This document shows positions 79 through 62,522 of a stretch of 64,000 nt of DNA, piece after piece. The stretch comes from Prosapia bicincta (Eukaryota > Arthropoda > Insecta > Hemiptera > Cercopidae). Location: positions 17,414,067-17,478,066 of the forward strand of contig JBAIZL010000002.1 in NCBI GenBank assembly GCA_036971475.1, read 5' to 3'. Below the pieces are notes generated by a model, which did not search any database, was not told the DNA's origin, and saw nothing but the letters and a program-made list of their open reading frames with translations. The first letter of the stretch is position 1; the number at the start of each line of letters is the position of its first letter. Made by a program: the position numbers and the translations under genes.

Positions 79-329
79 GACTAGGAGACTGACAGACTTA
101 CCTTGGTAAGAGTTCACTCTGTAGTCTTGAAATAGGAACACATAAAAGCACTTAAACAATGATATATTTCAACTACACAGTGGTCTTTGTCAATCAAAGA
201 GAAAACACAAAAAGAAATATGAGAGAATGAAATAAAATAATTATTTTATTTCATTCTCTCATATTTCTTTTTGTGTTTTCTCTTTGATTGACAAAGACCA
301 CTGTGTGGTTGAAATATATCATTGTTTAA
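79..329. repeat. Family A Penelope-type terminal repeats, head-to-head palindrome
   Basis: 79-243 is an antisense copy (AGGAGACTGACAGACTTACC..) and about 244-329 begins a sense copy, so the two form a long inverted repeat centred near 240. The sense copy is interrupted by a piggyBac at 330 and resumes at 2784-2880. The repeat also occurs at about 3500-3690, 11396-11570, 13098-13262, 16755-17125 (again a palindrome), 17376-17457 and 17545-17745. Confidence 0.85.
281..324 (+). ncRNA. Hammerhead-like ribozyme candidate, family A
   Basis: Core UUGACAA at 288-294, one linker base (295), stem II GACCAC/GUGGUU (296-301 with 305-310, loop UGU, one G-U pair), GAA 311-313, palindrome AUAUAU 314-319, then C320. 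Stem I is weak (UGAU with AUUG). Departures from the classical hammerhead are U3-A8 in place of C3-G8 and an extra base before stem II. Antisense copies include 161-200. Activity is untested. Confidence 0.45.
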
Positions 330-3149: not shown

Positions 3150-3255
3150 TATTATTAGTAATTGTAAATAGTTTTTTTCCACCACTAAGTGCAATAATTT
3201 TACCTTATGTGGTGAGGCACCTTTCGGTCACTTGACCATTGCCGAATCACTATTG
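2888..3255. repeat. Family B repeat fragments around a (TA)n tract
   Basis: A CA/TA microsatellite at 3057-3144 is flanked by pieces of family B (CTGACTTTATGAAGTTA on the left, and 3155-3255 on the right). The right piece carries an antisense, slightly diverged hammerhead-like motif near 3209-3250 (stem III palindrome position AGGTGCCT). Confidence 0.7.
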
Positions 3256-7545: not shown

Positions 7546-7560
7546 ATGTCATATTACTTA

Positions 7561-7685
7561 TGTCACTGACTTTATGAAGTTAATATATTACTATTGTAAG
7601 TAATTTTATCCACCATTAAGTGCAATGATTTTACCTTGAGTGATGAGGCGCCTTTCGGTCACTTGACCATTGTCGAATCACTGAT
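7561..7685 (-). repeat. Family B repeat, antisense copy
   Basis: Starts with the GACTTTATGAAGTTAATATA end, continues through ACTTAATGGTGG (read in reverse) and ends with the hammerhead-like segment. Other copies: 3155-3255, about 11110-11205, 11215-11345 and 34395-34550. Confidence 0.75.
7639..7682 (-). ncRNA. Hammerhead-like ribozyme candidate, family B (antisense copy)
   Basis: On the minus strand: stem I AGUGAU/AUCACU (6 bp), core UCGACAA, one linker U, stem II GGUCA/UGACC, GAA, palindrome AGGCGCCU, then C. The core differs from CUGANGA at positions 3, 4 and 8, while 3-8 remains a U-A pair. Confidence 0.45.
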
Positions 7686-7893
7686 TATTTTTTCTTAATT
7701 TTTCTGGTGCGGATGTTCGGTCCGTTGTGTTGGTAATTGTTGACGTCATATACGTTTCCTCTTGAGTATTATGTTTTTGAATAGTATGTCTTCTGTATAT
7801 GTTGTTTGTAGATTCAATAAATTGTTGTGTATGTTTTTATAAATGTGGTTATAAATGTTACAACCCAATAGAACTAAACTCACTAGAAAAATA

Positions 7894-7926
<33 letters not shown>

Positions 7927-7929
<3 letters not shown>

Positions 7930-10486
7930 TCGGCGCCGCTTATTGTGATCACGTTTAATGTTATCATTCGGTTATTGTTATCGTTTCATTGAAAAACAAA
8001 CACGAACATATATTAATACATTGTAATTAGGCCGCTTATTGTAATCATCTGTTCGCTTATTATTATCATTTAATTTGCCATTCAAAATCATATGCGTCAA
8101 CGTATACTAGCATGGACCAAGTAAAAATGTCTACAAAGTAGTGTAAACAGCACGTGCAACACACAAATGACGCCCAATTCATAGAATGTTTATTTTTAGA
8201 ATGACAGAAATACTTTATAATGGTTTCAGCACTTAGCACAGTTCTCAGAATGTCTCCCTTACTCTTTGTTTACGCAAACAACCTAGACTCGCTGAGTCGA
8301 CCTTAGTTGTTTGTTAACATTAGTTGATGTTACTACTGAACCATTTACAGTACAGTCCTACTCTATTTTTTAACAGTGAATTTTTATGAACGTTTATTAC
8401 AGCATTTCAGTGTGATTTTACATAACTTATTTTTTAAAGATCTTTTTTGTTTGTTTTGTAGAGGTTAGTGTCACTTGAAGTCTCAAAGGACAGTATAGCA
8501 AGATGTCCGAATCGCAAAAGAAACGACGTGATTTAAGTCTTAAACAAAAACTTGATATTCTAGATAGGTACAGTAAATTACCAAAAATGAGTAAAAGAAA
8601 CGCTGCTTCTCAACTTGGCGTTTCTCAACCTCTCTTATGTAAAATATTGAACAACAAAGAAAAAATCTTGTCATTATCAAAGTGTAATGCAAATGTTGAC
8701 AACAAAAGACATCGTTCTGGGAAGGATCCGCAAGTGGAATCAGCTTTGAAATTGTGGTTTAAAAATGTTCGCAAAAAAGATGCTCGAGTTGATGGCCCAC
8801 TAATGCGTCTAAAAGCTGAGGATCTTGCCAAAAAAATAGGAAAACAGGATTTTAAAGCCACAGATGGATGGTTCAATCGATGGAAGAAAAGGGAAAATAT
8901 TATTTACAAGAAAACGTGTGGTGAAAAAAGAAATGCTGATTTTGTTGGAGCTGAGGACTGGTTACAATACGAATATCCAAAGATTTTGGCCGAGTATTCT
9001 CCTAGCTGCATATACAATGCAGATGAGACAGGACTTTATTATCGTGCTTTACCCGAACATACTTACTTATTTAAAAATAAAATTGCTAACGGCTGTAAAA
9101 TATGTAAACAAAGAATAACTGTTTTGTGTTGTGTTAACATGGTTGGTCATAAAAAAAAACTCTTAATTATCGGTAAATCTAAAAATCCACGTTGTTTTCA
9201 AGGTATCAAAAAGCTACCGGTTGAATATCATTCAAACTCCAATGCTTGGATGACATGAAAAATTTTTAATGAATGGCTGACTAAATGGGATACCAGCCTC
9301 AAACGCAACATTGTCCTTCTACTAGACAACTGCACTGCACATAATGACATAAGCACTATGCTAAGACACATCAAAGTGATTTACCTTCCGGCCAATACTA
9401 CATCAATTATTCAGCCATGTGACAATGGCATAATTAAAAATCTCAAAAGTTTTTATCGACGAGAGATGCGTGCTAGAATTATAAAAAATATGGATGAATT
9501 TCAAACACTTACCTCAAATGAATTGGCTAAAAAAAACTTCTTTACTCGATGCTATTCATCTGATAGCAAAATCTTGGAATGAAGTTTCTGAAAAAACTGT
9601 GAAAAATTGCTTTAGAAAAGGTGGTTTTTTTGTTGAAGAAAATCAAGAGCAAGCTACATCTGAGGAAGACTCTGAAGAGAACTTGAAGCCTTTCGATTTG
9701 TCCTTAAAAGAATATACTGAGTGGATGGAAGTTGACGATAGTATTGAAACAGCAGCGGAAATGACTGAAGACGATATTTGTGAGGTAGTTGCTTCAACAT
9801 CAAAAGTTACTGAAGAAGAAGAAGGCACCGATGATGACGAAAATGATAAATGTGTAGCGCAAAGATCTAAGCAGGAAGTTCACCAAGCTCTTGAGATTCT
9901 AAGACAGTTTGTTCAACAAAAAGCAGAAAATTTCAACAAACATTATGAATATGAACAATTTATAAACAATATTTTACGAGAAGACTACAGACAGTCACAT
10001 ATAGAGGAATTCTTCGAGAAAAAGTAAATGTAAGTTTGAAGTGTAAATAAGATTGAAGTGTTTTATAATGAAGTTTTATGTGTTAAAATGTTTTGATCAA
10101 GTGTTTTACCTAGTTCTATATATTTTTTTTCAATTATGCTAGATTCAGTGTTTTAAAAAAAATCTACAGTGGAATAAAATAAACTGACATGAAATGTGCC
10201 CACTAATTTTAACAAGTAGAAAACTAAATTACAGAAATTCTACTACTGTACATAAAACTGTCCGGATTAGCATCAAAATTTGGTAAGTACAGTTTAATTA
10301 TAGTGTTACAGAATTAGAATTACTTAATGTAATGATAGGCTTACATATCGTTCAGAACAAACAGTTGTGGCAATAATACAGTGAGTTCAATGCAGTACGG
10401 CTGTAGACTACATCGTGATTAAGCGTTCGGTTATTGTTATCAAATATGCTTCTGACAAATATGATCACAATAAGCGGCGCTGACTG
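7927..10486 (+). mobile_element. pogo/jerky-like (Tc1/mariner superfamily) transposon with TA duplication
   Basis: A 2560-bp element flanked by TA (7925-7926 and 10487-10488). Inverted ends are CAGTCGGCGCCGCTTATTGT and, reversed, CAGTCAGCGCCGCTTATTGT. Subterminal GTTATTGTTATC motifs occur at both ends. It carries a CENP-B/DDE_1 transposase pseudogene and is inserted next to a TA microsatellite. Confidence 0.92.
8503..10027 (+). pseudogene. pogo/jerky-type transposase with a premature stop and a frameshift
   Basis: ATG 8503. The N-terminal CENP-B-type helix-turn-helix (DLSLKQKLDILDRY...RNAASQLGVSQPLL) is followed by a second HTH_Tnp_Tc5-like region (WFNRWKKREN). The DDE core has YNADETGLYYR, LLLDNCTAHN and IIQPCDNGIIKNLK. 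An in-frame TGA at 9256-9258 splits a continuous homologous reading (NAWMT then KIFNEWL), and one extra base in the A-run near 9530 shifts the frame (ELAKK to TSLLDAIHLIAKSW). The C-terminus is acidic. These are the only two obvious lesions. Confidence 0.92.
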
Positions 10487-11109: not shown

Positions 11110-11336
11110 ATGAAGTTAATATATTACTATTGTAAGTAATTTTATCCACCATTAAGTGCAATGATTTTACCTTGTGTGATGAGGCGCCTTTCGGTCACTA
11201 GACCAAAGAACAATGAACTGAGAAAAAGTAACAGTGATTCAACAATGGTCAAGTAACCGAAAGGTGCCTCATCACACAAGGTAAAATTATTGCACTTAGT
11301 GGTGGATAAAAGTATTTACAATAGTAATATATCAAC

Positions 11337-11942: not shown

Positions 11943-13097
11943 TTATCTGATGTTGAGGTTAGGGGATTCTCTGGACTTGGTATACCACTGGTATGATAGT
12001 TCCCATCTTCTCAGTTCTGAGGGATTGCAATCAGGGGGGAGTGATTTAATTATTTTTGTGGTATAGCAGTCATCAAAAGTTGTGATGTTGGGACTCGCAG
12101 CATGTTGAGCTGTTGGTCTATCCATATTCATAATTTTAACATCATGTCTGTGGCCATTCATTCTGATATTCAGACCATCCGTGGTCAGGCTTTTGTACTG
12201 TGCTGAGCAAAGTTTACATTGTAGCTGGTATATGACATTTTTCGATGTACAATTATGATGACCCTGTATTTTGAAGACCATTTTTGTTGTTTGGCTGTTG
12301 AAACTATTTGCTGAGGGGTGTATTGGACACGTCTTGCATCTAGGTCTATTGCATGGGAAGGAACCATGAGGAAGTTTGTGTGGTTTCTCTGCATCAGGGT
12401 CTGGTAGTTTAGGATGTACTAGGATGTTTTTCAAGTTGGGAGGTTGCTTGTACCAAATTTGCGGTGGATCGGTGAAAAGATTTTTGGTGTGGACGGAAGC
12501 TTGAAGAATTTTGAAGCCATCTCTCAATGTCTTGTTGAGTTTATGTAGACCAGGATGGTAGTCTGTTATTAAAGACAGTTTATTTTGTTCTGTTTGTGGT
12601 TTATGGTGAACCGAGGATTGTGCTGAATGAATTTGGTTTTCAATGAGTTTTTTTGGGTATCCTCTTCTCTGGAAGGCTGTTGATATCTTTCTATTAAAAT
12701 CTTCCAATTCCCTATCATTCGAACAGATTCTCTTACCCCTGATTGCTTGACTGTATGGAATGGATCGTTTTATGTTTATTGGGTGGTTGCTGTCGAAATG
12801 GAGATATTGTAGGTGGTTTGTCGGTTTGATGTGAATTCCTGTGTTGATATTTCCATTCTGGAGTGTTACCTCTACATCCAAAAAGGTGATGGCTGATGTA
12901 GATTTCTCCCAGGTAAATTGAAGTGTGGAGAATTGTGTCAGGCTGTCTAAAAATGCCTCAAGTGTTGAAGCACCCTGTGTCCAAATTAGGAAGATGTCAT
13001 CTATATATCTATACCAACATAATGGCTGGTGTGTTTGTGTCTTTAGAAAACTTTCTTCCAACAATCCCATGTACAGATTTGCGTACGATGGTGCCAT
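11943..13097 (-). CDS. Penelope-like element: partial reverse transcriptase plus GIY-YIG endonuclease
   Basis: A 384-codon open frame starting in the middle of a Penelope-type RT (MAPSYANLYMGLLEE) and containing the catalytic YRYIDDIFLIW near residue 29 and the FLDVEV thumb region. A Cys-rich linker (CNRPRCKTCPIH) follows, then a degraded GIY-YIG domain (NVIYQLQCKLCSAQYKS, RMNGHRHD) in which the usual YVG/YIG is YKS. The RT fingers and earlier palm are missing: upstream, the sequence switches abruptly to a family A repeat at 13098. The downstream side is A-rich and (TA)n. It is 5' truncated, and endonuclease activity is doubtful. Confidence 0.9.
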   Translation of the reverse strand: MAPSYANLYMGLLEESFLKTQTHQPLCWYRYIDDIFLIWTQGASTLEAFLDSLTQFSTLQFTWEKSTSAITFLDVEVTLQNGNINTGIHIKPTNHLQYLHFDSNHPINIKRSIPYSQAIRGKRICSNDRELEDFNRKISTAFQRRGYPKKLIENQIHSAQSSVHHKPQTEQNKLSLITDYHPGLHKLNKTLRDGFKILQASVHTKNLFTDPPQIWYKQPPNLKNILVHPKLPDPDAEKPHKLPHGSFPCNRPRCKTCPIHPSANSFNSQTTKMVFKIQGHHNCTSKNVIYQLQCKLCSAQYKSLTTDGLNIRMNGHRHDVKIMNMDRPTAQHAASPNITTFDDCYTTKIIKSLPPDCNPSELRRWELSYQWYTKSRESPNLNIR

Positions 13098-13262
13098 TCT
13101 GTGACAAAGACCACTGTGTGGTTGAAATATATCATTGTTTAAGTGCTTTAATGTGTTTCTATTTCAAGACTACAGAGTGGACTCTTACCAAGGTAAGTCT
13201 GTCAGTCTCCTAGTCCAAAAAATCTAAATAATCTTTACCAACCAAAACTAACCTATAAATAT
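13098..13262 (+). repeat. Family A terminal repeat abutting the Penelope ORF
   Basis: A sense family A copy starts directly at the 5'-truncated end of the Penelope ORF, which runs on the opposite strand. The junction is ..CTGTGACAAAG. This is the main evidence that family A is the terminal (pLTR-like) repeat of this Penelope family, present here in inverted orientation. Confidence 0.75.
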
Positions 13263-17177: not shown

Positions 17178-17496
17178 TATGGTGATATGTTTTCTTGTAA
17201 TATAGTTAATAAATTAAAAATATTTCAAAAACAAGATAAAAACATTAGATAATTATTTTCCTGAAGATGCTGGTACTATTTTATCGGCGAAAAGCTTTGA
17301 ATAAATATATTCATTAAAAGTATTCTTGTTTTTGAAATATTTTAAATTTATTAATTATATATATATATATATATAGATTTTTTGGACTAGGAGACTGACA
17401 GACTTACCTTGGTAAGAGTCCACTCTTATGAAATAGAAACATATAAAAGCACTTAATATATATATATATATATATATTAATATATATATATTAATA

Positions 17497-17556
<60 letters not shown>

Positions 17557-17772
17557 GGTTAGTTTTTGTTGGTAAAGATTATTTAGATTTTTTTGGATTA
17601 GGAGACTGACAGACTTACCTTGGTGATAGTCCACTCTGTAGTCTTGAAATAGAAACATATAAAAGCACTTAACCAATGATATATTTCAACCACACAGTGG
17701 TCTTTGTTAATCAAAGAGAAAACACAAAAAGAAATATAAGAGAATGAAATTAAAAAAAAAAAAATAATAAAA

Positions 17773-17838
<66 letters not shown>

Positions 17839-17840
17839 TG

Positions 17841-17916
<76 letters not shown>

Positions 17917-20900
17917 TGTACTAGAAATATTTTTGTATTACATGTTCAGGTACTATAGACTTATGGATGTCCATATCACCAACACCCATACGGAATTCTC
18001 CATCACTGTCTATGATGGCAGAGTATCGAGCAGTAGCCTTGTCTTTAGATATTAAAATGCCGTCACAATTCTGTAATCAAAAGTTTTTAAATTTAATGCA
18101 TTCTATATTCTCACCTTGCAGTAATTTGTATTGCATAGTTCACAGTTTGATAAACCAGTAAAATTAATAACTATATTTATTAAAACGTTTGTAAATATTT
18201 TACAACTTGCCTATAGTAGCACTTACTTATATTCATTTCGGGAGATGTGTCCCATTGTCAACTCAGATAGTAACTGATCTCAAGGTTTTTATAGGTTAGG
18301 GTGAGGGCGTGGGTGTATTTGGTGAGTATTAGGAGGTATGATGTCGAAAAGTATGTGTGAGTTATAATGTAATTGGGTGTTGAGTATGAGTGTAGTTATA
18401 TCTAGCCTATGTAAAAACTGGGGCACGACCTGCAAGTTAGTTTGTAAAATCCAGCGGCATTGTAAATGTCGTTCACTTTGTTGTTAGGTTTAAATTGTTT
18501 ATTGAGAGTGGTGTATGTGGAGTAGGCTATTTTGTAATTGCATTTTCGTAGTGTGTTGGTTAGATTGATGGTTTTGAATGATCTGTATGGTTTGTTAAGT
18601 ATTTTATGGGTTTGATCATCTCATATCCACAAAACATGGCTACTTAAACATAACATTCAACCTAAAATTCTTCATAAACAATACAAAAATAACCAACGAT
18701 ACACAACTGAACAATACAAAATAAACAAACATTTCAAACTACACCCTACATACATACACAACACCCAATTACATTGTAACTCTCACATACTTTTTGACAT
18801 CAATATTCACCAAAATACACCTACACCCCCACCATAATATCCCACCCTGCCCTAACACCCTAACTTACGAAAACCTTGAGATTAATTACGGTCTGAGTTG
18901 AGAATGCGACACATCTCTCGAAACAGCCGTCCCCAACAAATATAAGTAAGTGCTGCTATAGGTAAGTTGTAAAATATTTACAAGTGTTTTAGTGAAAACT
19001 AGTAGCTGACATGAAGATGGAATCAACAAACTATATTTACTTACACATAACTGTTAAAGAGATAAGTCTTCTGAAATGGTTATCTACAAAATAAGAGCTA
19101 CTTTAAGAAAATGTTTCTAAATTAGGAAGCAAGTAAGTGAAAGTTTTGTTTTATTTATATCTGTTCTACAATATTATTATTAAATATACATTTGTAATCT
19201 TCTTGATAGGGATTAAAGTGATGGTGTTTAGTATGATTTATAGGTAAGAAATATTTTTTTTTGTTTAGCTGCTGGTCACAATATTGGCGTTTTCCCGGAG
19301 AATTGCCAGATTATTTGAAGCTCATTTTTGAATAATGTGTACTTATTTTTTGTTCCCCTTTAATATCTAAGTACGAAAATATGTTTCTTATGATAATATA
19401 TATATATATATATAAACATGTGTCGGGCCAACATAGTTTCTTTATAGGGTAAATTACACCTAAATAAACTCCGTCCGGCCAATCAGCCTGACATTGTATT
19501 TGAGGTATTTATATTCTCTTATCACTCCAACACACTATTCATATTTTTTTATTTGTGTAAACAGCAAAAGCACATTTTCATGCTCTGTTTTCCCACATAA
19601 TAAGCTGACTGGCCAGTAAAGTGTTTTGGCGCTTATCACGAAGAGACGTAAACCTCTCACTTGTGATTGATTTGTGAGTTTATAATTATTTTGTATATAG
19701 AACGGAAGTGTATACATATTCTCTGTCTGATAAGTATTGCTTCAGATACGATAAATACTACACAAGATTTCAAAACAAGCAAAAGTTTTGAAACTTAGTA
19801 ATTTACTTTTTAAGGAATTTACGTTATAATTTACTTTTAAGTATGTATGAGTTTATCTAAGTGTACCAATGTTTGTACTTAACTTCAACCAAGACCATTT
19901 TTGTAAGAATTATTATACAACTAAATATTTAGTTAATACTTCTGACTTATTGTTTAGCTTTTGTGAAAGTAAATAAAGATAAACTTTCTTCAACAAACTA
20001 ATTTGTTTGATTAGCATAATCAACTCAACTTCACTAAAATTGTTAAGAAATATGTGTGTCGAACCGTAAATCCCGACGAAAAGTTCCTAAAATAACATCA
20101 TGTTTATAATACCGTCGGCATTTATCTATCAAACAAAAACAATCATAATTATATCTGTAAGTAGTGTGAAGCTTGTTGTTTAATACTTTGCATTTCCAAA
20201 AGTAGCAACACCGGTTGAGTAGTACGAATAAACATAAAACGTTACTAGACAACAATGTCCCAGGCCCAACGGTATTCGATTCAGCCTATTGTACCGTCGG
20301 GCCAAATAAAATTTTAAATTTTATTAATGTTATAAAGTCATTAAAATTTTACTTGAAAATCTATTTGCCCTTTCAGAATTAAATAAAATATATTGTCTTA
20401 GAATTAGTTTAATTATAGAAAATCTGATATAGGTTTTTAAAACATATTGAAAGTTAACTGATTTTAACCCATTTCCTACCACTGACGAACCTATCTCGTC
20501 CCTACAAAATGTCTTTAGTGGGCATACAAACACCAGTTTCTTGTCATCAATTTTTGTCGTCACTTCATAGAACTACGTTCCTTTTTTGAATGTTTAGTCT
20601 GCTTGACCCTTGTCAATGTGTTATCGTCTTCATGCTTCACATAGAACAAATTTCTCATATCTAAACAATTGTTTTTTTTTGTGTGCAATTATCTGTGATC
20701 ACTTGACGCGACAAATTAATTCGTGCTGCTGGATCGCTCGGATTGCGACTAATTTAATCTAGTTGATGATATTTTGACTCTTTATACAACTTTTTATTTG
20801 TATTTGAAACATGAAACACATTTTAAATATCTTATACAATCATAAATTTTGTAATTTGTAGCTGGAATAAAAAAAATGATTCATGGATTGTATTTAAAAC

Positions 20901-23900
20901 CTGTCAAGGCCTCTAAAATGTTGTTCTGTTGGAATGGTAAAGAGCTATCAGCAATCACCATAAGATAAACAAAGTTAGCAAACCTACATTATACATATAC
21001 TGAATTTAAAAGTGGGTTCACACATACCTCACTCCATCCAAGACATTTTTGATATTTTCCTTTTTAGCTTCAGCTGGGCTCAATTTCACTAGTTTTGCTA
21101 TCCTAAATTATTTAAAAATGATTCAATGTACAGGGCTATCATAAAAGAATGGTGCGGTTTCGAACATGGTTTAAAGAAAACCCGAATTACTTACAGTTAA
21201 TGTTGTTTATTCATCTAATTTGTCATCTGAAACATTTTTTTTAAACATAATTAATAAATTTCAGTCGCTAGACAAATGTCCAAACTTAGTCGCTAGACAA
21301 ATGTCCAAACGATACTAAACTTCTCTCCAAACATTTGTTAACATTTTTTCAGTTAAGGTTGTCATTGCTTCATTAATTATGTTTTTTAAGTGGTTCAGGT
21401 TACAAATTTTTTGAGAATAAACAATGCTTTTGATGTACCCCCACAAGAAAAAATCACAAGGTGTCAGGTCTGGACTCCTTGAAGACCACAGCATAGGTCC
21501 TTACCAACTTATCCATCGATCTCCAAATGTTTTGTTCAAAGCGTCCGTGACCAACGCACTGAAGTGTGGGGAAGCACCATCTTGTTGGAAATGAAGTTGA
21601 TGAATGTTTTCGAGTTCATCTAGATGAGGAAAGCAATATTCCCTACAATCTTCCTATGAATTACTAAAACCGCACCATTCTTTTATGATAAGCCTGTATT
21701 TTCTCAAGGCAGGGACCAGTTATAATTCAATGACAGTAAGCTCCACAAAAACCACTTTTTAACTGGTCACGCTTTCCACCAAAGTACCCAGCATCTCTTT
21801 TCATTACAAAAGCGATCCGTTGGAAGAAAGTAATCTCTCCAAATACCTGGTTGTAGTACTTGATAGATGTCTGACATGGAGTCCTCATGTCGAACAGTGT
21901 GCGGAAAAAGCAACAAAAAGAACAAAAATATTAAAAAGACTGACAGCTACAACATGGGGTGCAAGTCCTAATAACTACCTAAAGTCATATATCCACGGAA
22001 GTCATACATATAAGTCTTTGACCACACAAGTGAAGTGTCCATCACAAGCAACTGTAACATCCTCAGTAAATTGGCCAACTGAAGCTCAAATAACCCCAAT
22101 GGCGTCCTATGAGAGGGTGGCCTTAAAGTATGGAATAGCCCTAGAGAAGCCAGCACTGCTTGCAGATTGCCACGAGTTTTTCCACAATTTACCAAAAGCT
22201 AATTCCAGATTGAAGAACCACAGTCAGACGAAATCAGCATCCCTGGACATAGAACTGAAGCATGCAGCCCTGCATACAACCAATGAAGAGTATTGCAACC
22301 AGATTGGTTACATGTATACATGGATGGGTCATCAATACTGAAAACAGGTGCAAATGGAGCTGCCTACTACAGTCGCAATTTTGAGGGATACCTAGCAGTG
22401 GGAGCTCCCGAGACCAACTACGATGGAGAAATAGCAGCATCACAAGCAGCAGCAGCCGAAATAAACAAAATAGTCGCTACACAGACAATTTTCTTCATCA
22501 AACACAAGCGGCTATCCGAAACCTATCGCAGAAAACAGATACAAACTGCAAAAGAACAATGGAAACAAGAAAAGTCCTGGAACACCTGGCAAATAAAGGT
22601 TGGCATAATACCTTACAATGGATCCCAAACCATGTTAGCATCTATGGAAATGAGAGGGAAGACTTTCTGGCCAAAAAAGGCACATCCATGGCACAACCAG
22701 CAATCAGCAGGAAGAAAATGGGAAAACCTAGTCACCACAGGACCCATCGACCACAGATTTCCACAAGCTGTAGGCGTTGCCAAGTTCAGAATACACACCA
22801 GCCATGACTACCTGGCCGCCCATCTACATCGCATCGGTGTGCTCCCAACACCGGAATGCCGTCTCTGTGGACACGATATGATGGATGCAGATCATCTGAT
22901 GAAATGCAATGTGCATCCCATCCATTTCGGAGATGATGACCCACTTGTTCGTCTATACTGGTCAGCGCGTCACCAAATAGCTCAACAGCCAAGGGTGGCT
23001 AGTAAGTAAGTATTTTCTCAAGGCAAGGCAGGATTATTCAGGGTAAAATTTCATTAACTTTCGTTTTCTTTTATAAACCACAATTTAAAATTACTTTAGA
23101 AGGAAAGGTAAAATAAAGTTTACCTTCAAGAAATTTTTTAAATTCATATCAATTATAGCTGTTAAAACAAATCAATATTTATAACAGATAAAAATATTAA
23201 AAAAGCCCTTCAACGATTTCATTTTAAAATATATTTATTAAACTTGTACTTACAACATGACTGAGAGACTCCAACACAAATTTTCCAAATGTATCGTCTC
23301 CTACAGCTGAAACAAATTTCGGAAATATGCCTAGTTTGCCTATAGCATCAGCCAAATTACGTGCAACCCCGCCAGCACACTGAGTAATATGTCCAGTTAA
23401 GGTACAGCCTTCAATCTGCAAAATTTGCTTACTTATAAAAACTGATAAAAAGAAATATAAATTTTGATAAAAATTTTAAATATGCCTATGAATACTAAAT
23501 ATATGTTTGTGTATTTATTTTAAAATAAACTTGTGTGAGGTTAATAATTGTTAGTAAAAATAAGGCCCTAAGTAGCTTTAGTTTCTTACCTTTAATGGTT
23601 CTGTTAGATTAATGACAAAGTCAACTACCGAGCCTCCAAGCACAATCTACAACAAACAAAACTGTGTCATTTCCTTATAAATGAGGAAAATACTCTTATA
23701 TTTTACAGAAATAAATGAATATTACAGTAGAACCTCAATATAACAGACTATTTGGGGCCTGAAGGTTAACTGTTTTTATGAAAGTTCATTATAAAGAAAA
23801 TTTTACACTAAAACTGAAACAAATAATCAACAATTTTATTAAAAGTAAATTTCTACATACGTCAACATAGAAATTTTTATTGTAGTTATTTTTTTATTAA

Positions 23901-26900
23901 ATATTTACAATTTATAAAGATAAAATAACATATCCTATACATTAAAACAGCTGTTCTACCACAAATCTATAATCACATAACATAAAATCACCTGTTTTAT
24001 GAAATCATATGTTATCACTTATTTGAAGCCAAATGGAACGAAAAAACTATATTGCATACGTTGCCCCTTTTCAGAAAAGTTTTTATTCCATACAAAACTA
24101 AAATTAATTCATTAAATTTAATTATTGAATTAATACTTGAATAAACTATATTAACATCAAGTGTCATCCACTACAAGTTTTAAAAAATCTATTTGAACTA
24201 GAGTGGACGAATAAAAAGTATTTTATTACGGTTATTATATATATAGGGAGAGTGTGAACTAAGAGAAGGAATTGAAAAAAAGAAAGAAATAATTTAAAAC
24301 ACGTGAAAATAAAATTAGCAGTGTGCTAAACCTTTTTATAACATTACTTATAACAGAAATCATCATACAGAAAGCATTTTGAGGTTGATTTTTATAACAG
24401 AAGTCAAGTTTTAGCAGGTGAACTTCTGGGTAGTATTTGTTAACACTTGTTTAGTATTATTAATACTACTGATATTACTAAATTATCATTTATGATTCTG
24501 CATCATTTGAAGTACTTTTAATACAGGTGCCATATCAGATGAGTGACCTTTTGGCTACAACAGTGTAAAACATTATTTCTGAAAAGTTTTTGTTCAAAAT
24601 ATATTTATTAACACTAGATAAAATTGTATATAATAATTAGTGATATACTAATGTACAATACATGCAGTTCTATAGCATCAACCTTTTGGAGGAGTATATC
24701 ACTTGACAGAAGATATATGCAACCATGTCAGTAGCAGTTTAAGCATTACACTGACTGCTTAAACATATGTCTGTGGCATATGTTTACCTGGCTGGCAGAT
24801 GGTGTGAGATATTTTCAAAACACAGTCTTTTATAAGCAACATGTGGTTTAATAGGGTATGTTAGATGGAGGTTCTATCATACTACAAATATTATTACAAC
24901 AGTATGTCCAATGATAAAACATTATTAAGATATCTCAAGACTTTTGCTCTTAAAACCAGAAACTATTGGAATAGCTAAATTTAACAACAAAAGCACTACA
25001 AAATTTATTTATTTAATTAAATAATAATCAATTAGGTAAAAATAATATAATCAATTATACTGACTACACCGCAATACATTCTTTTTAACTAAATAATCTT
25101 GCTGTGTTGTCTACTTACAGGGGAAGCGATGGGAGTCTTATACTTTGAACACAGCGCAAGAGCCCTGTCCTCTCTTCCTGCAATCCTAGAAATTTTGAAA
25201 GTTTTTTATTTACTGTAAAAAATTGCATAAAATCTTTGGAAATTGTTTATTACACCCACGAAACAGAGAGAAAATATTTAAATTTCAGAAGGTTGAAGTC
25301 CAACGAAAGAAAATAGATAGTTTTTTATTATTTCAAATATATGAGCTAAGTTCATTGTATTATTTTTAAAAGTAGACAAAAAACAATTAAGTAATGGTAA
25401 AATAATTTTATAAACACATCAAGATACATTTAGACCATGTATTTTTTCTTTAAATGTGATGTGTTAAATTAATGGTTGGAGTATATTGATCCAAATTGTG
25501 TGGAAAATTATTCTACTGTAATCCTGGTATTTCAATATACAGTAGAGTCTCGAAATTCCAAGTCCCGATTTTTTGAGCTTTAGTTACATTCGGGCCCGGC
25601 TTCGAGTCGGCTAAGCCACGGTATTAATCACCTAAGCCACCGGTGTTTAAAAACATTACCAAGTCAGCAATGCCGGTTTAATATAACAACTATAGTGGTG
25701 ATCAGATGGATAGAGAACTATTCAAAGAGTGTTTTTTAAAATAATTTTGTGCCCAAAACTGAAAGTTTTTAATAGCAAAGAATTTGCCTCGGAAGGCTAT
25801 TTTACTGTTAGGAGATCAACTGAAAATCTTTTTACACTATTACTGAAGATCAACTGTGATCTGATGATATCCATGATTTGTATCTTCCTGCAAATGTTAC
25901 GAGCCTAATCCAGCCGATGGTTCAGTATCCTGGAATGTTGAAAAAGAAATACACGCGTTACCTTTTACAATCCCTCTTGGAAGTGACTGAAGGGGGAGAA
26001 AGCATTGTATAGGGTTTCTAAAAAAAATTACAGTTAAGGGAGTTGTGTATTAGGTAGCCAAATCATGGATCAAAATAAAAGAAGAAGCATCAACTATGTC
26101 ATGGAATAAAATTCTGATGGTGACAAAATTGATAAGAGACACAAAAATATTCTGCTTTGATGAAAAAATGTGAAACAAAGGTCCTCTCCATTGGAAAAGA
26201 ATTTTACAAAATGTTAACGAGTATCACTGTGTCATTAGAATAGATGTTAACATTTTAAAATTCTCCTAAGCCATGAGTATAAAGGAATTTCTCTCGAAAG
26301 TTGAGGAATTTCTCATGAAGTTTTGTTTTCTATGCAGATCAGGACTTGTTAGGGATGGGCCAATACCTAAAATTTTTTATTCTGATTCTAAAGTTTTTCT
26401 ATCAATTCTCAATTCTCGTCAATTCTTGATTCTTTTAAGTTATTTAGGCCTACATGATATACTCTAATAATGATCTTAGTTAACATCTTGGTCAAATGTT
26501 GAAGTTTTTTAAAAGTTCTGTTTTAATGATAAACATATCAGATAAAAGTAATGATCTATTTAAAATTACAAATGTAAACTTCAGTTCACAATTACAATAT
26601 AACTTCAGTAATAGCAATTTCAATTTGTATAGCTGGAGAAATTCTAACTACTTATTCATTGTGGTTTTTTTTTATATCTATAAACCAGGTGCGTAGTAGT
26701 GTCAGCCAGAGATGTGGAGAGAGAGTGTCAAACCCACCCGAATGAGGGTGAGATAGCACAGGGAGACGAGCAGTGCCGATTGTCTTTGTTGTTTCATCAT
26801 AAATAATAATAATATTTTTGTTATCTCAAATCGGTATTTGCCTTAATAGTTTAATCTATTCACCTATTTGCTATAATAGTTTAATAGTTAAATTACACCG

Positions 26901-29900
26901 CACACGTATTTTATCTGTTGAAAAAACAAGAATCGGAAACAGCACTGTAATCAATGGAGAATTGAGTATCGACGATTGCTCAATACCATTAGAATCGACA
27001 ATTCCTGGAGTCGAGAATCAAAATCAGCCGATCCCTAGTTTAATATGAGAGCACCAATACTTACATAATTTTATGGAGTTCAACAGCAATCTGAGTCCCT
27101 ACAACTGCATTGTTTTTGACCAATGCAATGTATGTTCTTAGTTAAGGAAAAAATAATCACACAATTAAATAGCTTTTAAATGTTATCAAATTAGTTTTAG
27201 GCATTATATAAAACTTTCAAATTACAAGTGATGAGTTTGAGTAAATGGTAAATAGGCTTTTTATAACATAAATTAGTGCTAGATCAAAATTAATAAAAGT
27301 TTCTTAACATGCCAGCAAAAGTAGCTGTACTTTTGATGAAATTTTTAAGGATTTACAAAAAATTTGTAACTGCTAATTTTTTTATTATTTTTTTTAATTG
27401 TTACTGATTCTACATAAACTTAAACAAATGGTACTTGAAATAAACAAGAGAAATATATAAAACTTTAAATTACAAAAAAATCCATTTTTTCAATTTTATT
27501 TATAAACACAATAACTCTATTTACAATAAAAATATTAGACAAAAACCCCAATACCACATATAACTAAAATTACAAGTTACCTAGTTATAAGATTAAATCC
27601 TTAAGTACATTTCAATGACCATGTTATAATTATCAGAGCGCCCTAATAAAAAAATTACAATCTACAATACCTTCAGGCCAGTCAACTTTGAAAATTATTG
27701 TATTCTAAGTTGTAATTTTGTAAAAAGACCCTCTGATGATGATATGGTCATTGAAATGTACATAAGGATTTAATTTTAGGCAACTTGTAATATTAGTTAC
27801 TTTCGATTATTTTTGTGATATTGGGATTTTTGTTAATATTTTTATTCTAATATAATGACCACTGAGCTATTGATGTTATATAAATAATGTTTTGAAAAAT
27901 ACATTTTTACTGTAATTCAAAGCAAATGCATTTTAGATATTTAGTCTTGGCATTTTCAAGGATGACTCTACAGTAACAAGTAGCTAAAATTTTGTTCTTA
28001 AAGCTCATTACAAAACCTATCAACAATCTTTATATAATGATGGGAGTGCAAGGAGGTAAAAGTTTCTTTATGTACGGAAGTTTAATTTTCTCTTACTACC
28101 GCTTGCCAGAGTATTTAACATGCAGCCATAACAATATATATTTTGAAGGTAACTATTTTATAAAGTACGAGGTCTGTTCAAAAAATACACGGACTGTTTG
28201 AATTTCGCGGCTCTAGTTAGTTTCAGGAGAATCTGCTTGGTGTTGCTAGGTTTGTATAACTCAGCTGATTAAAACGCGGTATTTCAGTCGTAGATATCTT
28301 CATTTGTTGATGAGTTACACGCAGTTTAGTAAAGAGTGTTTTTTTCATTTGTCGGATTGTAAAATAGACATTTCCACTTTTGCAAACAGTGCCTTTAGAA
28401 TCACATTGCCAACTCATTCTTTTGTTCATTGTGTAACATATGTCAATGTTATATTGTCAATGTCCACTGATTTATAACACAACTCTTTTTGACCATGTTG
28501 TTATATAGTCAACCACAAATTATTTTTAGAAATAAATAAAAGGGACTGATTTTGTAATGTTTGTCTAAACAGATGCTGCCTTTTTATACACTATTTTCTG
28601 TCTTCTGTATATGTGGGTACTGTAATTTTTTACAGTATGTGGTTATGTTGTATATGGATTGAATAATGAAGAAATTCTATTGTGTTACCACAAGTCTACA
28701 GTTTTTGCCTATAGTGTTTACAGATCGTTTCGAAGATGTGCGGTATTTTACAATGAATAAGTATTTTACAAAAAAAAAAAAACATAATTTTTAGTTTTTG
28801 AATTTTGTAGTCCATTACGTTCTGTGAATCTTATTAATCACTTAAACAATAGTTTATGTCTATCCGAACTTTATATTTAGTAAATGTGTTAAAACTTACT
28901 GAGACAGAACGTTTTCGATCGCTATGTGCCTATCTTCATCAGTGTCTTCTGCTTGGAGATGTTGGGTCAAGCGGTGACGGTTTTAAAGGTAGGTTTTCGA
29001 TAGTATAAAAGAGTATGTGTGATTTGTATTGTGTTTGTTCGTTTAATGTGTTTGTACTTTGTGTTTTTGTGTGTCTGTAAATTTCATATTGTTCTAGTGT
29101 GTTGAGATGTGTGGTATTTTACAATGAATAAGTATTTTACAAAAAAAAAAAAACATAATTTTTAGTTTTTGAATTTTGTAGTCCATTACGTTCTGTGAAT
29201 CTTATTAATCACTTAAACAATAGTTTATGTCTATCCGAACTTTATATTTAGTAAATGTGTTAAAACTTACTGAGACAGAACGTTTTCGATCGCTATGTGC
29301 CTATCTTCATCAGTGTCTTCTGCTTGGAGATGTTGGGTCAAGCGGTGACGGTTTTAAAGGTAGGTTTTCGATAGTATAAAAGAGTATGTGTGATTTGTAT
29401 TGTGTTTGTTCGTTTAATGTGTTTGTACTTTGTGTTTTTGTGTGTCTGTAAATTTCATATTGTTCTAGTGTGTTGAGATGTGGTCCAATTCTTGTTGATA
29501 TGTAGGATTTCTAGGTTATGGTAAATATCTGTGTATTTGTGTCCTGTTTTTTTTAATGTGATTATAAAATGTTGAGTTGGTATTCTGTTTGTGTTCTTCG
29601 ACTCTTTGTTGAAAGCTGCGACCTGTTTGTCCAATGTAGAATTTGTTACATTTGTCGTAGTTCAGTTTATATACGCCTGGTGCTTGTAGTTTATCTTTGT
29701 TGTTGGTGTCTTGTTGTATTTTGTATTGTAACTTGTTATTAGTTTTGTATGCTATTTTGTATCCTATTTTTTGAAATTTGCCGGCTATTTTGTTTGTTGT
29801 TTTGATTATGTATGGTAATGTGATGTTTTTGTTTTCCCTGTCTGTAGTGTTAATTTTAGTGTTTTTTTTTTTTGTATTTTGTACCATAGTTTGTCTATTA

Positions 29901-32900
29901 TTGAGGTGTTGTATCCATTTGTGTATGCTGAATATTTAATTGTGTCTAGTTCTTTGTTTATGTTTTCTGTGGTCATTGGGACTTCTTTAAGTTTAGGAAG
30001 CATGGATCTGAAGGCAGCGTGTTTGTGTTGGATAGGGTGGTTTGAGGTGTTGTGGATAAGTGTCTCTGTTGTTATGGGGTTTCTGTAAATTTTTGAAGCT
30101 GTGTTTTTGTGTGTGGCTTTTTGTTATGGTTAGGTCGAGGAAGTTTAGGGATCGGTTGGTTTCAATTTCTGAAGTGAAGTGGAGTTTTAGGTGTATTTTA
30201 TTAGTGCAGGTGAGAAGTTTTTCGCATTGACGGGAGTTGCCTCTGTATAGTGTTATGATATCATCGAAGTATCTGTACCAGTAAATGATTTTGTGTGCAT
30301 GTGTTGTAGAAAAATTCCACTTAGGACACTATTGATAGGACTTCCCATTGGTAGGACATCAAGTTTGAGTTGTGGGTGAAATAGTTTTGTTTGGTGATGG
30401 TTTGGAGGATGTTTATGATTTCGGTAACATGGGTTTTAGGTATGTTGTTCTGTATTAATCGGGTTTCTAGGATGTTGAGCGTTTCGGGTATGGGTATGTT
30501 GGTGTACATATTTGTTATGTCGTTTGACAGTAATGTTGAATTGTGTGGTATGTTTATGTCTTTTATTTTATTTATGAGGTTTGTTCTGTTTTTTATGTGT
30601 GTTTCTGTGTTCAAGTTTATGGATTGTCTGATTATTATGTCCATGTATTTTGCTAGTTTATGTGTAGGGGCATTCTGGTAGTTGATGATGGCTCGGATGG
30701 GGACATTGGGTCTGTGAATTTTGGGAAGAGCGCGGAAGGTAGGTGCTTCAGGGTGGATTTGTTTTTGTTGATTATGTATTTAGATGTATTAATTGGTTCT
30801 GTGATATTTCTCTGTTGGGTCTGTATGTAGTTGTACTATATTATTATTTATTATGTAATCATTGATTTTGTCATTTAGGCTGTCTGTCATATTAAACGAA
30901 CAAACACAATACAAGTCACACATACTCTTTGATACTATCGAAAACCGCCAACGCTTGACCCGACATCTCCAAGCAGAAGACACTGATGAAGATCGCCACA
31001 TAGTGATCGAAAACGTTCTGTCTCAGTAAGCTTTAACAAATTTACAAAATTTAAAGTTCGGATAGTCATAAACTATTGTTTAAGTGATTAATAATTTTTA
31101 GCAAAGAAATTGTCAGTAAACGTAAGTTAAAGTTAGGTTAACATGAAAAGTTAATTGAATTTTAAAAATATTAACAAATATGACTATAATTTTAAAAATT
31201 AGAAAAAATAAAGAAAAGATTAGAAAAAATAAAAAGTGTAAAAATGTTTCAAGAATATCAACATAGCTCCCAGCGGCCATATCAGGGCAGGCGCATGTTG
31301 CTAATCAAAGGGTTAAGAACAAATATCATTTACTTGGATAAATACTAATGACACAATAAATATGGAATTACTGCAAAATTATCTATTTTATATGCATCTC
31401 ATAAGTACAAGTATTGTAGCATCATGCCCAATCCTTAACCATCTCTTATTTTGTGGCAATAACAATCTAAATATGATCTCCAGTTTAAAGTATGATATTT
31501 CTTGATTCCATCTTCTCATGAACTACTAGTTTTTAACTAAAAACACTTGTAAATTGTTATACTTGCCTATAGTAGCACTTACTTTGTTGAGGACAGCCGT
31601 TTTGTCCCATTGTCAATTCAACATTCTTAACAAACAATTTAAACTCAACAACATATACAACTCTGCTGGTATTTACAAACTAACTTGCAGTTTGTGCTTC
31701 AGTTTTTACATAGGCCAGCATGAAGGTCATTTTATACACGCTACCAAGAACACATAAAACACTAACACACAAAACTACCCAATCGAACTTCGCTGAATAT
31801 TTCTTATCCACAAACCATAACTACACAAACATAATATCTAACCTAAAAATTCATCACAAACAAAACAAAAATAACCAACGATACACAACTGAACAATATG
31901 AAACATACAAACATTTTAAACTACACCCTACACACACACACTCAAGACCCAATTACATTATAGCTCACATACACTTTTTAACATCATAACTTCTAATACT
32001 CACCAAAATACACTCACATTTCTACCCTAATATCCCACCCCACCCTAACCTACAAAAACCATGAGATCAGTTATGGTCTGAGTTGACAAAGGGGCACATC
32101 TCCCAAAACGGCCGTCCTCAACAATATAAAGTCAGTGTTACTACAGGCTAGTGTAACAATTTACAGGTGTTTTTAGTTAAGAATGCCAGTGAAGTGAAAT
32201 AATAATTTTATGTTATATCATAAAACTTACGAAACTTTTCATATTAACTACTGTGCAACAATAGATCATTTCAACAATAAAATAAAGGTTTACTTTTTAA
32301 ATAACCTGGAATAAACTGAAAAAGAAGAAAATGGGACACTCTGCTACAATGAGATATACAAGATTATAACAAATTTTAAATTATAAGAAATATGAATATT
32401 GTTTATTTTATATTTTTCTCCGTTCTGCCAAAGAATTACTTACAAAACTGAAAACTCTTAGATAAACAGTGTTAACATTTGTATTCCAATCCTTCAACTA
32501 ACAACTGCTCTTTCTGAATTGAAACCAATTTTCTGTCTGCATTTTGTTAAATTAATAGGTTTAAAAAAATATTATCCCTATTTTTATATTATAATAGTAA
32601 GTAAAAAAATGTGGTTTGCTACCTAAGCTAGTAACCGATAAGATACATTTAAAATAATAAAACAAATGGCAATCTAAATTAACTCTAGTTCCAATTAATT
32701 TATTTTGTAATTTATACTGTAAAAATAGCAAACTTACTGAAAACTAAATTTTATATTATTATAGAATATTGGCAATTTTTTCGACGACTATATTCAATAA
32801 TTTCATTTGAAGAGATATATTTGAAAGATGTTATTTGTTACTGTTAAAAATTTTGACCCCATATATTATTTCAAAAGAATTGTTAGAGGATACTAGTGTT

Positions 32901-34676
32901 TAGAGATATGCCTTCAGTCAGGTGTGCCAACTTTTCCAACACAAATGGTGTTACTGCTTTACCTTTCATTCCACATTCATCGGCTGATTTTAGGGCTGAT
33001 TCTATGTTCTGTTCCATAACATCATCTGAAAAAAAAACCAAAAAGATATTTTATAAGCTTGTGAGTGCTCCTTCCATAAAGATCAATGAAACAATAATCA
33101 TAGGTTTATGATATATCAAACTTTTGATTTTAAGGTAATTGCTTACTAAATGTTTATAGGTTTCCTGGATGCATACTTTTTTAAATTGTAGAACTCACAA
33201 AAAAGTAGTAAGTGAAAAACAATTCTCGCAAGAAAAACAATATGCAAAATCATTGTTAACTCACTACACAGTTTCACATTGTAGAATTTACTTATTTTTT
33301 TTAACGCTTAAGCCACCTGTGACTAGCTGTAAATGTTCTCAAACAGTTCCAACAATATTAAGAATGAATAATGAAATAATAATCATCAGCATTATTTTAT
33401 TATTCATTCTTGATAGAGATGGTCAATCCAGTGACTTTATTGGATCGGTGATTTTAGTGACAGGGCCAGGTTTGGATCAGTGACTTTAGTACTGGTGACA
33501 AGGGATACTGAGACAGATCTGTATGTGCCAATAACAGGCAGGCATACACACTAGTAAAATGATTTCACACCTTGGTGTTTTTCTTTTTTTGAAGGCTTGT
33601 TTTTTTTAAAATAAACCCTTACGAAATTAAGAACAAACTACTGAGTGCAAAGTTACATCTACTGTACACAACACTCACTTTCTCAAAATTTGACATAAAT
33701 TGACCATCTACAGACTACGTAAATGAGTATAACCAGTGACAGTGACAAATAAACCAATGACAAACCTTGGTATAAGGCCCAAAGCTGTGTTCCTAGCACA
33801 TCTCTAGGAATTCTGATATTTGTAATTTTTAGACCCACTAAAACGTCACGTATAGTAAAACCAAGAAGTTTGGGCTCAGCCATTCTTATTATTTTTGCTT
33901 GTAAGAAAAAAAAACCAGCCTATAACTCAATAGGTTCGTGAAATATCCAATTGAAATTAATATCTTGAAATTGTTAGAAATATCCATTTATATTTTGTTG
34001 AAAATCTGAATGTCTAAGACTCGTTTCTTAATCAACCTTTCAATACAAAGGAAACAGCCCTCCGTATCTCATGTCTCTGTCTCTAATAGTGATCAACGCG
34101 CCTTGCTTGGCATCACTGGTTTCAGTATTGGCCCAATCACAACAGAGACAATCCCCTCTCTCTCCTTCAGTCAATGACACTGCACATAATCGGCGCCGTG
34201 AGCCGAGCAGTGAGAGCAGAGTCAGTGACAGCGACAATGAACCAATGACAGCCATTTAATTCAGTGACTGCGACTTTTTGTCCAATCACAACAGAGAGAA
34301 CTTCCGCTCAATTCCTTGTCACTGGTACCACCAGCAACAAACGAATATCAGTGACAGGTCACCCTAACAAAATATTGACCACCCCTAAATCCTGATGATA
34401 TATATTACTATTGTAAGTAATTTTATCCACCATTAAGTGATTTGACAATGGTCAAGTGACCGAAAGGCGCCTCATCACACAAGGTAAAATCATTGCACTT
34501 AATGGTGGATAAACTTACTTACATTAGTAATATATTAACTAGTACAATATACCTTAAGGTAGCAGCGCTTCGAGCAGTTTAAACCCGCTCCCAAGTTAAT
34601 AAAAAAAAAATATATATATATTAACTTCATAAAGTCAGTGCAACGGAAAAACAATGGGTAACCTAAAATATCAAGA

Positions 34677-61523: not shown

Positions 61524-62522
61524 GTTTTAATGTGTAGAACACGAATATCAACTTTTTTCCCACGGAAAATACGGAAAGTTACTTTTTTCACATTTTAAAT
61601 GTTAGGTTGTAATGAAATGTATATCATAAACGAGTCTTATTGATATTGTTTTAAAAATTTTTTAAAATTTTAATTACACATTTCAATGTGTAGAACACTA
61701 AAATTAACTTTTTCCGCGAAAAATACAAAAAGTTAATTTTTCTGCACATTTTGAATGTTAGTCTGTAATAGCATGTAGAGCGTGAACCGACTTCGCAGTA
61801 CACTACTGACAGCGCACTTCACTACGTCAAAGTCAGTTTATTTAATACTAAACTTTAAATCTAAATATTTAACTTTTGGTTATAGTTTTATAGAACATTA
61901 CTATATACCTACATTAAAATATACCTACGAAGTATTCAGTCAGGATAGATTTGATTATAGTTTTATACAACATTACTATATTACCTACATTAAAATATAC
62001 CTATTAAGTATCAAGTCAGGATAGATTTGGTTATAATTTTACTCATCATTACTATCTACCTATATTAAAATATACCTATGAAGTATCCAGTCAGGATAGA
62101 TTTGGTTGTAATTTTCTGCATCGTCAATAAGTCTAAATATTTACCAAAATTATAACTAAATCTATCCTGACTGAATACTTCGTAGGTATACTTTAAGACA
62201 GGTAGATAATAATGTTGAATAAAATTATGACCAAATCTATCCTCTCTGGATACTTCGTAGGTATATTTTAATATAGGTAGATAGCAATATTGAATAAAAT
62301 TATTACCAAATCTATCCTGACTGGATACTTAGTAGGTATATTTGAGTATAGGTATATAGTAATTTTGTATAAAATTACAAATCTAGATGTAGCTACTGCT
62401 TGCCTGGTTCACGCTATAGGCCTAATGCCTTTACAACCTGACATTTAGAATGTGAAAAAAAGTAACTTTCCATATTTTTCGCAGGAAAAAAAGTTGATAT
62501 TCGTGTTCTACACAATAAAACT
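61524..62522. mobile_element. Foldback element with opposed tandem arrays
   Basis: Inverted ends of about 100 bp (AATGTGTAGAACACGAATATC on the left, its complement near 62500). The centre holds about four direct units of ~75 bp (61850-62115, each with TAAAATATACCTA..AAGT and CAGGATAGATTTG) followed by about three inverted units (62140-62390). The left end is also partly duplicated (61680-61790). No ORF. Confidence 0.75.

Follow-up and report, generated by a model that had tools for sequence, protein, structure and literature searches.

Several distinct repeat families in a 64,000-nucleotide (nt) stretch of the genome of the hemipteran Prosapia bicincta (contig JBAIZL010000002.1, positions 17,414,067 to 17,478,066; hereafter the window) carry a short motif laid out in the manner of a hammerhead ribozyme. 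We interpret these motifs as minimal, type-I-like hammerheads of the dimer type, derived from the pseudo-long terminal repeats (pseudo-LTRs) of several Penelope-like lineages, and assign this interpretation a probability of roughly 0.78. An initial annotation had proposed, for six families (A to F), the order stem I, a core of seven nt, one base, a stem II hairpin, GAA, a palindrome in place of stem III, one base and the closing strand of stem I. That several distinct families lie at this one locus was confirmed.

Families C and F reproduce the proposed order exactly, as could be read directly from the letters. The C motif (30979..31022, plus strand), also recovered in descriptor scans and in 48-49 aligned copies, consists of stem I GACA/TGTC, the core CTGATGA, an inserted A, a stem II of six base pairs (bp), GAA, AACGTT and C17. 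The F motif (17258..17304, plus strand), which was likewise found by scan and by self-match, lies in an inverted repeat, has a TA tract on its downstream side and combines stem I TTC/GAA, the core CTGAAGA, an inserted T, a 7-bp stem II, GAA, AAGCTT and a T; further copies occur in L027, L038 and L040 (L numbers denote genomic loci examined alongside the window). The canonical core, C3 U4 G5 A6 N7 G8 A9 together with G12 A13 A14, is present in C and F, in E, and in two further types, G (palindrome ACGCGT; L034:371, minus strand) and H (palindrome ATAT; a single occurrence at L038:9964, plus strand). A second type with the palindrome AACGTT has stem I CCTCC and a stem II of 3 and 0 bp at its two sites (L034:913, plus strand, and 828, minus strand).

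Among the aligned C copies, 45 of 48 rows have C-G at positions 3 and 8; the palindrome pairs are intact in 46 to 49 of 49, and stem II has lost its sixth pair in 21 of 49. A reading frame passes from upstream through the C motif and stops directly after it (open frame 30925-31023). This stop is kept in 42 of 43 gap-free copies, an earlier stop occurs in 1 of 43 (19 codons read), and minor-letter rates at codon positions 1, 2 and 3 of the frame are 0.028, 0.040 and 0.046; the stop probably marks the end of a Penelope open reading frame (ORF). Two further C motifs, at 29274..29317 and 28903..28946 (both minus strand; scan and sequence read), occupy the two 371-bp units of a tandem pair with 99% matches (28734..29482, minus strand; Tandem Repeats Finder), which we interpret as pseudo-LTRs. 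The view of the initial annotation that the ribozymes are active or recently active found no support: only this tandem looks recent, and stem II is damaged to 3 bp in both of its motifs.

The claimed order was upheld in part for E, B and D. In the E copy that had been cited (27730..27767, plus strand; sequence read, scan) the core, GAA and the palindrome ATGTACAT are present, but stem II is a weak 3 bp; versions with a 6-bp stem II occur in L010 and L036, and a divergent copy (27588..27638, minus strand; sequence comparison) lies head-to-head to the one at 27730. Families B and D depart from the canonical core in having U3 and A8, to which B mostly adds C4. The B copy at 34437..34478 (plus strand; sequence read, scan) fits the claim, with stem I GTGAT/ATCAC, the core TTGACAA, an inserted T, a 4-bp stem II, GAA, AGGCGCCT and then C. 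Three other complete copies, which differ from it in the core, lie in the window at 7640..7681 (minus strand; core TCGACAA, AGGCGCCT; sequence read, scan), 11234..11275 (plus strand; core TCAACAA, AGGTGCCT; sequence read) and 3209..3250 (minus strand; core TCGGCAA, AGGTGCCT; sequence read). The B copy in L038 has AGGTACCT in place of AGGCGCCT, and AGGTGCCT would remain able to self-pair by way of G-U pairs; such variation of the B palindrome is the best sign of change that preserves self-complementarity.

In D, the order holds for the family, of which two clean copies lie in L002, but the copy originally cited (32080..32119, plus strand; core TTGACAA, palindrome ACGGCCGT; sequence read, 37 aligned rows) has A for G12 and reads AAA in place of GAA. 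Another window copy (18895..18934, plus strand; sequence read) is damaged. Across the D alignment, whose 37 rows comprise 14 earlier ones and 23 taken from twenty places that were chosen among 44 rows, U3-A8 is present in 35 of 36, A9 in 36 of 36, and A13 and A14 in 37 of 37; position 12 is G in 26, A in 9 and T in 1 of the 36 readable rows, a loss in 10/36.

For family A the proposal failed in the register given. The motif (281..324, plus strand; sequence read, scans) has TTGACAA, a 6-bp stem II, GAA and ATATAT, and the register of its stem I and core is ambiguous: if ATATAT and one further base are taken, all six A copies from a scan that required no stems have a stem I of 0 bp, and the alternative register (ATAT, then A) gives 2-3 bp. 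Two A motifs (157-197, minus strand, and 284-324, plus strand) stand head-to-head in a near-perfect 178-bp inverted repeat (152..329; self-match). Homology of A with H was considered; the alignment of the two is ambiguous and the A core itself uncertain. Scores for microRNA families of Rfam at 173-308 fell below gathering and were dismissed as a hairpin artefact of the long A inverted repeat. A MAFFT alignment of eight sequences misplaced the motif and was discarded, and no between-family pair count is claimed.

Our sample comprised 355 kb of the 2.2-Gb genome, namely the window, 29 C-selected loci and 20 grid loci, with L001 left out as it equals the window. The grid loci are twenty 10-kb pieces (200 kb) of the same chromosome as the window. 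As about 29 of the 49 loci were fetched by their similarity to C, many sites are C copies and non-independent. The full descriptor demanded a stem I of at least 3 bp, the core, a spacing of 0-1, a stem II of at least 3 bp, GAA, a palindrome of 4-10 nt beginning with A, and then a base other than G. In the window this gave five sites with the canonical core (one each of F and E, three of C) and three TTGANAA sites (B once and A twice, the latter in the ATAT register). Across 60 Markov-shuffled windows, the core sets tried had mean matches between 0 and 0.017. Permutation of the core letters is the sharper control because the real repeats stay in place: over 179 permuted versions of CTGANGA the mean was 0.011 matches in the window, against five for the true core, and 0.006 in the grid stretches, against eight (stem II of at least 3 bp). 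For TTGANAA, 59 permuted cores yielded 0 matches in the window against three. With a stem II of at least 4 bp and a looser core, the grid stretches held ten sites, in 4/20 loci; scaled to 2.2 Gb the motif count would be of the order of 100,000, an estimate based on clustered sites from one chromosome. A first look at the whole genome gave 1960 candidates for C and 2516 for D (40 scored for each).

Two regularities, the single base after A9 and the palindrome, emerged from scans of the 355 kb in which part of the motif was left free. Where the core, GAA and a palindrome of 6-8 nt were required and the stems were not, 61 sites were found, 46 of them with a stem I of at least 3 bp; a stem II of at least 4 bp was present at 0, 42 and 0 sites for spacings of 0, 1 and 2. 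Where stems I and II of at least 4 bp were required and the palindrome was not (spacings 0 and 1 only), 50 sites were found; at 47 of them a single additional base separates A9 from stem II, and at 3 there is none. Although no palindrome had been asked for, 36 of these 47 have a perfect one; the 11 imperfect sites are seven C, D, E or F copies one change off a palindrome, two A copies and two chance-like sites (window 26412, minus strand, and L024:915). With palindrome and stems both required, spacings of 0, 1, 2 and 3 gave 0, 41, 0 and 0 sites. Hammerhead stems I and II thus go together with a very short, self-complementary stem III, and this, along with the near absence of matches to permuted cores, bears out the architecture initially proposed. 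In the Chrysanthemum chlorotic mottle viroid hammerhead, which has a fuller stem III, an extra A is placed between A9 and stem II.

A single motif would be without a usable stem III, the 4-8 nt after GAA being too short for a hairpin. The stretch after GAA is self-complementary and could therefore join two separate transcripts, or two units within a single tandem one, and stem III pairing between two motifs, also part of the initial annotation, agrees with what PMC6466107 and PMC7761336 relate of Penelope elements. In such a dimer the palindromes would form 4-8 bp and stem I would be made between the strands, giving a double hammerhead with each core assembled from two strands. Cleavage would fall after the base that follows the palindrome, and read-through tandem RNA would be cut into units. 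We infer that the RNA may fold, dimerise and cleave in this way in the cell, with a role in processing. RNAcofold returned the double hammerhead as the dimer minimum for both D sequences and favoured it over two monomers for B, D, intact E, F and G. Seven of eight palindromes bind themselves best, which is nearly inevitable for palindromes; ATAT was too weak to score.

The Penelope association proposed for the families is uneven: it stands for C, A and H and less directly for B, is weaker for F and D, and was not recovered for E, which has no comparable Penelope neighbour among the loci examined. A location in Penelope-like pseudo-LTRs is clearest for C, whose tandem of two units lies downstream, on the same strand, of a broken Penelope-like reverse transcriptase (RT) fragment with frame changes (29996..30833, minus strand; open frame, six-frame reading, tblastn with Penelope homologues). 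Frames beyond this fragment, to about 29480, are an apparent continuation with a GIY-YIG-like stretch recognised by eye. The A lineage has a Penelope-like ORF truncated at its 5' end (11943..13163, minus strand; homologue search), and some 0.4 kb downstream, on that strand, follows an A copy. This ORF has 59 homologues, many with RT, PF26215 or GIY-YIG domains; among those with a name, the closest belong to the leafhopper Macrosteles quadrilineatus. Pfam gave no match on the window's Penelope frames, this ORF included. H lies downstream of a truncated Penelope ORF in L038, where the order is a Penelope match (6843-7921), the B motif (8543), a TA tract, the truncated ORF (8855-9718) and the H motif (9964); given the TA tract, B and the truncated ORF may be separate insertions. 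In L008 a truncated Penelope ORF has an F motif immediately on its 5' side, and in L048 D lies 0.4-0.6 kb from weak Penelope matches.

A (TA)6 tract occurs within 400 nt downstream of 9/12 copies of A, 4/6 of B and 9/11 of F (partial copies counted; 22/29 together), and of 2/21 copies of C, D, E, G and H together. Over all copies such a tract lies downstream in 24/50 and upstream in 19/50, compared with 7.2% of random positions (one direction). The account in PMC11167929 includes insertion of an Anolis element into AT-rich DNA, and lineages that inserted again and again into the same TA tracts would become stacked, which may explain their pile-up; copies within one stack are non-independent.

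Close head-to-head inverted motif pairs are frequent, mostly with gaps of a few to about 35 nt, and both strands would read a motif. They were recorded at L027:1823-1936, L038:5320-5435, L036:669-791, L036:1689-1814, L043:1625-1747, L011:3046-3148 and 152-329 of the window; our guess is that they stem from template switching at the 5' end. The C units at 28903-29317 are the only tandem pair seen, whereas many other copies are arranged head-to-head. Judged by eye, the shared sequence of E and F copies often sets in only a few bases to the 5' side of stem I, which would suit a copied RNA that began there and not where cleavage is predicted. The word GTAAG, in many cases GTAAGT, resembles a splice donor and was noticed by eye close after the motif in many C and D copies (for D, in L051-L070) and further on in window A copies, as if the motif closed a 5' exon.

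Other elements of the window include a piggyBac-like transposase over two frames at 703-2518, with DDE_Tnp_1_7 in its second part; a long interspersed nuclear element with endonuclease, RT and RNase H domains (3709-7473, minus strand); a transposase with Tc5/CENP-B and DDE_1 domains (8479-9258, plus strand); a Pao-type retrotransposon (51490-55719, plus strand); and two 75-bp tandem arrays that face each other as an inverted repeat (61875-62377).

A number of results weigh against our interpretation of the motifs as dimer-type hammerheads. Rfam scans detected no hammerhead: no family reached its gathering score in the window or in six loci, and no hammerhead appeared in positions 1-36000 even at E <= 10. 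In the canonical hammerhead stem II follows A9 directly, and here one base is inserted at nearly all of the good sites. The B copy at 34437 flatters its family, because the other three complete window copies have C in place of U4, as does the L038 copy, and two of those three carry one more core change. Of the palindrome pairs that vary in D, the two innermost are intact in just 31 and 29 of 36 rows. Two-sided, compensatory changes are scarce within both C (48-49 rows) and D (37 rows), and a lack of such change in the stems was one half of what the initial annotation had named as counting against it. In the grid stretches TTGANAA had one match, an A copy, against a control mean of 0.034, and so barely exceeded its control. 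With RNAcofold, the double hammerhead ties with two monomers for C and is no better than two monomers for A, the window E and H, where it lies 12-20 kcal/mol over the dimer minimum; the gap to that minimum is 2-7 kcal/mol for B, C, intact E, F and G. From the literature, PMC11167929 describes Anolis Penelope insertion in vitro as unaffected by ribozyme mutants, and in PMC3088659 the tested Aedes and Nematostella palindromic-loop hammerheads gave no cleavage in a monomer assay.

Changes within C and D are mostly one-sided, so that the pattern inside a family resembles that of decaying insertions, and the support for ribozymes comes from the agreement between families and from the controls. We regard it as possible, if tentative, that the motifs descend from working Penelope ribozymes and that the copies here are dead, their order kept by common ancestry within families. 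The window D copy without G12, and the 3-bp stem II of the window E copy and of both tandem C copies, would fit such a history. Intact versions at other loci and the 99% match of the C tandem count against it, and decay would not bring sequence-unrelated families to agree on spacing and palindromes. A distinctly unlikely alternative is that these are short, non-autonomous elements resembling retrozymes, making circular RNA through the ribozyme and borrowing a Penelope enzyme. Many short units do lack an adjoining ORF, and the 371-bp C units resemble the animal retrozymes of about 170-400 nt described in PMC7229834; the same account, however, gives animal retrozymes fuller type I hammerheads in tandem, whereas we saw one tandem pair, many head-to-head copies and RT genes near some of them.

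An origin at the DNA level, with palindromes and inversions serving integration or arising by template switching and a hammerhead likeness devoid of any RNA role, strikes us as very improbable. It accommodates the common head-to-head pairs and the enrichment of TA tracts on both sides of the copies, but fails to predict the core, GAA and both stems, and permuted cores yield almost no matches. Accidental matches of a relaxed pattern in AT-rich, repetitive DNA can be given next to no weight. The word CTGATGA alone occurs 16 times in the window, both strands taken together, and Rfam found nothing, as such accidents would have it; the Markov shuffles, the permuted cores and the scans that left part of the motif free nevertheless largely refute chance for B to F as families, while the A motif may yet be a chance match.

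Much of this arrangement has counterparts in published accounts. Penelope elements are described in PMC6466107 and PMC7761336 as carrying minimal type I hammerheads that act, or possibly act, as dimers, with a palindromic loop required and an unknown role in vivo. The small, dimeric Penelope variants of Lunse, Weinberg and Breaker (2017), as summarised in the same two sources, resemble our motifs in occurring with Penelope elements, in having next to no stem III, in their palindromic loop III and in an action as dimers that is predicted for ours. The Penelope pseudo-LTR hammerheads of Cervera and de la Pena (2014), as portrayed in PMC6155905 and PMC7761336, share the minimal type I form, the pseudo-LTR location and an almost absent stem III; here, by comparison, one genome holds eight sequence types (A excluded, some seen once), two of them with a U3-A8 core. 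According to PMC3088659, several natural hammerheads show a covarying change of C3 and G8 to U3 and A8. The PAc ribozyme of the Anolis Penelope/Poseidon element, as given in PMC11167929, has stems I and II only, with its cut site 26 nt past the ORF start at stem II, and in family B a candidate ATG, made up of A9, the extra U and a G, stands at an equal distance by our count. The Aedes aegypti hammerheads of PMC3088659 are likewise interspersed repeats with a palindromic stem or loop III and a proposed dimer, although the tested Aedes example is reported there to match the consensus. The plus-strand hammerhead of Chrysanthemum chlorotic mottle viroid, for which PMC3705267 reports an extra A in the core, offers a natural precedent for an added base, in a viroid there and in Penelope-associated repeats here. 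By these accounts the core swap, the palindrome, the dimer and the Penelope setting are already known, and our families are best read as new and varied additions to the dimeric hammerheads associated with Penelope elements. What stands out in them is the additional base that follows A9 and the palindromes particular to each family.

We also considered a more speculative extension, which we think rather unlikely, in which each Penelope lineage would have evolved a palindrome that serves it as a private docking tag and keeps pairing and cutting mainly among ribozymes of one kind. Tags would drift through G-U intermediates, as the B series AGGCGCCT, AGGTGCCT and AGGTACCT may illustrate, to new self-matching ones, alongside a core re-tuned around the fixed extra base after A9. 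The sharing of AACGTT by C and the second type, and of ATAT by A and H, argues against it.

The role of Penelope hammerheads is unsettled, for they are conserved, yet cleavage is dispensable for insertion in one in vitro system, according to PMC11167929. Ribozymes of this sort may be undercounted, since the Rfam models, in the way we applied them, miss the motif. With around eight motif types, the majority of which have a self-complementary stem III of their own, this genome would provide a natural panel for studying dimerisation as a selected property, exclusion between lineages, and the tolerance of the hammerhead core for U3-A8 and an extra base.

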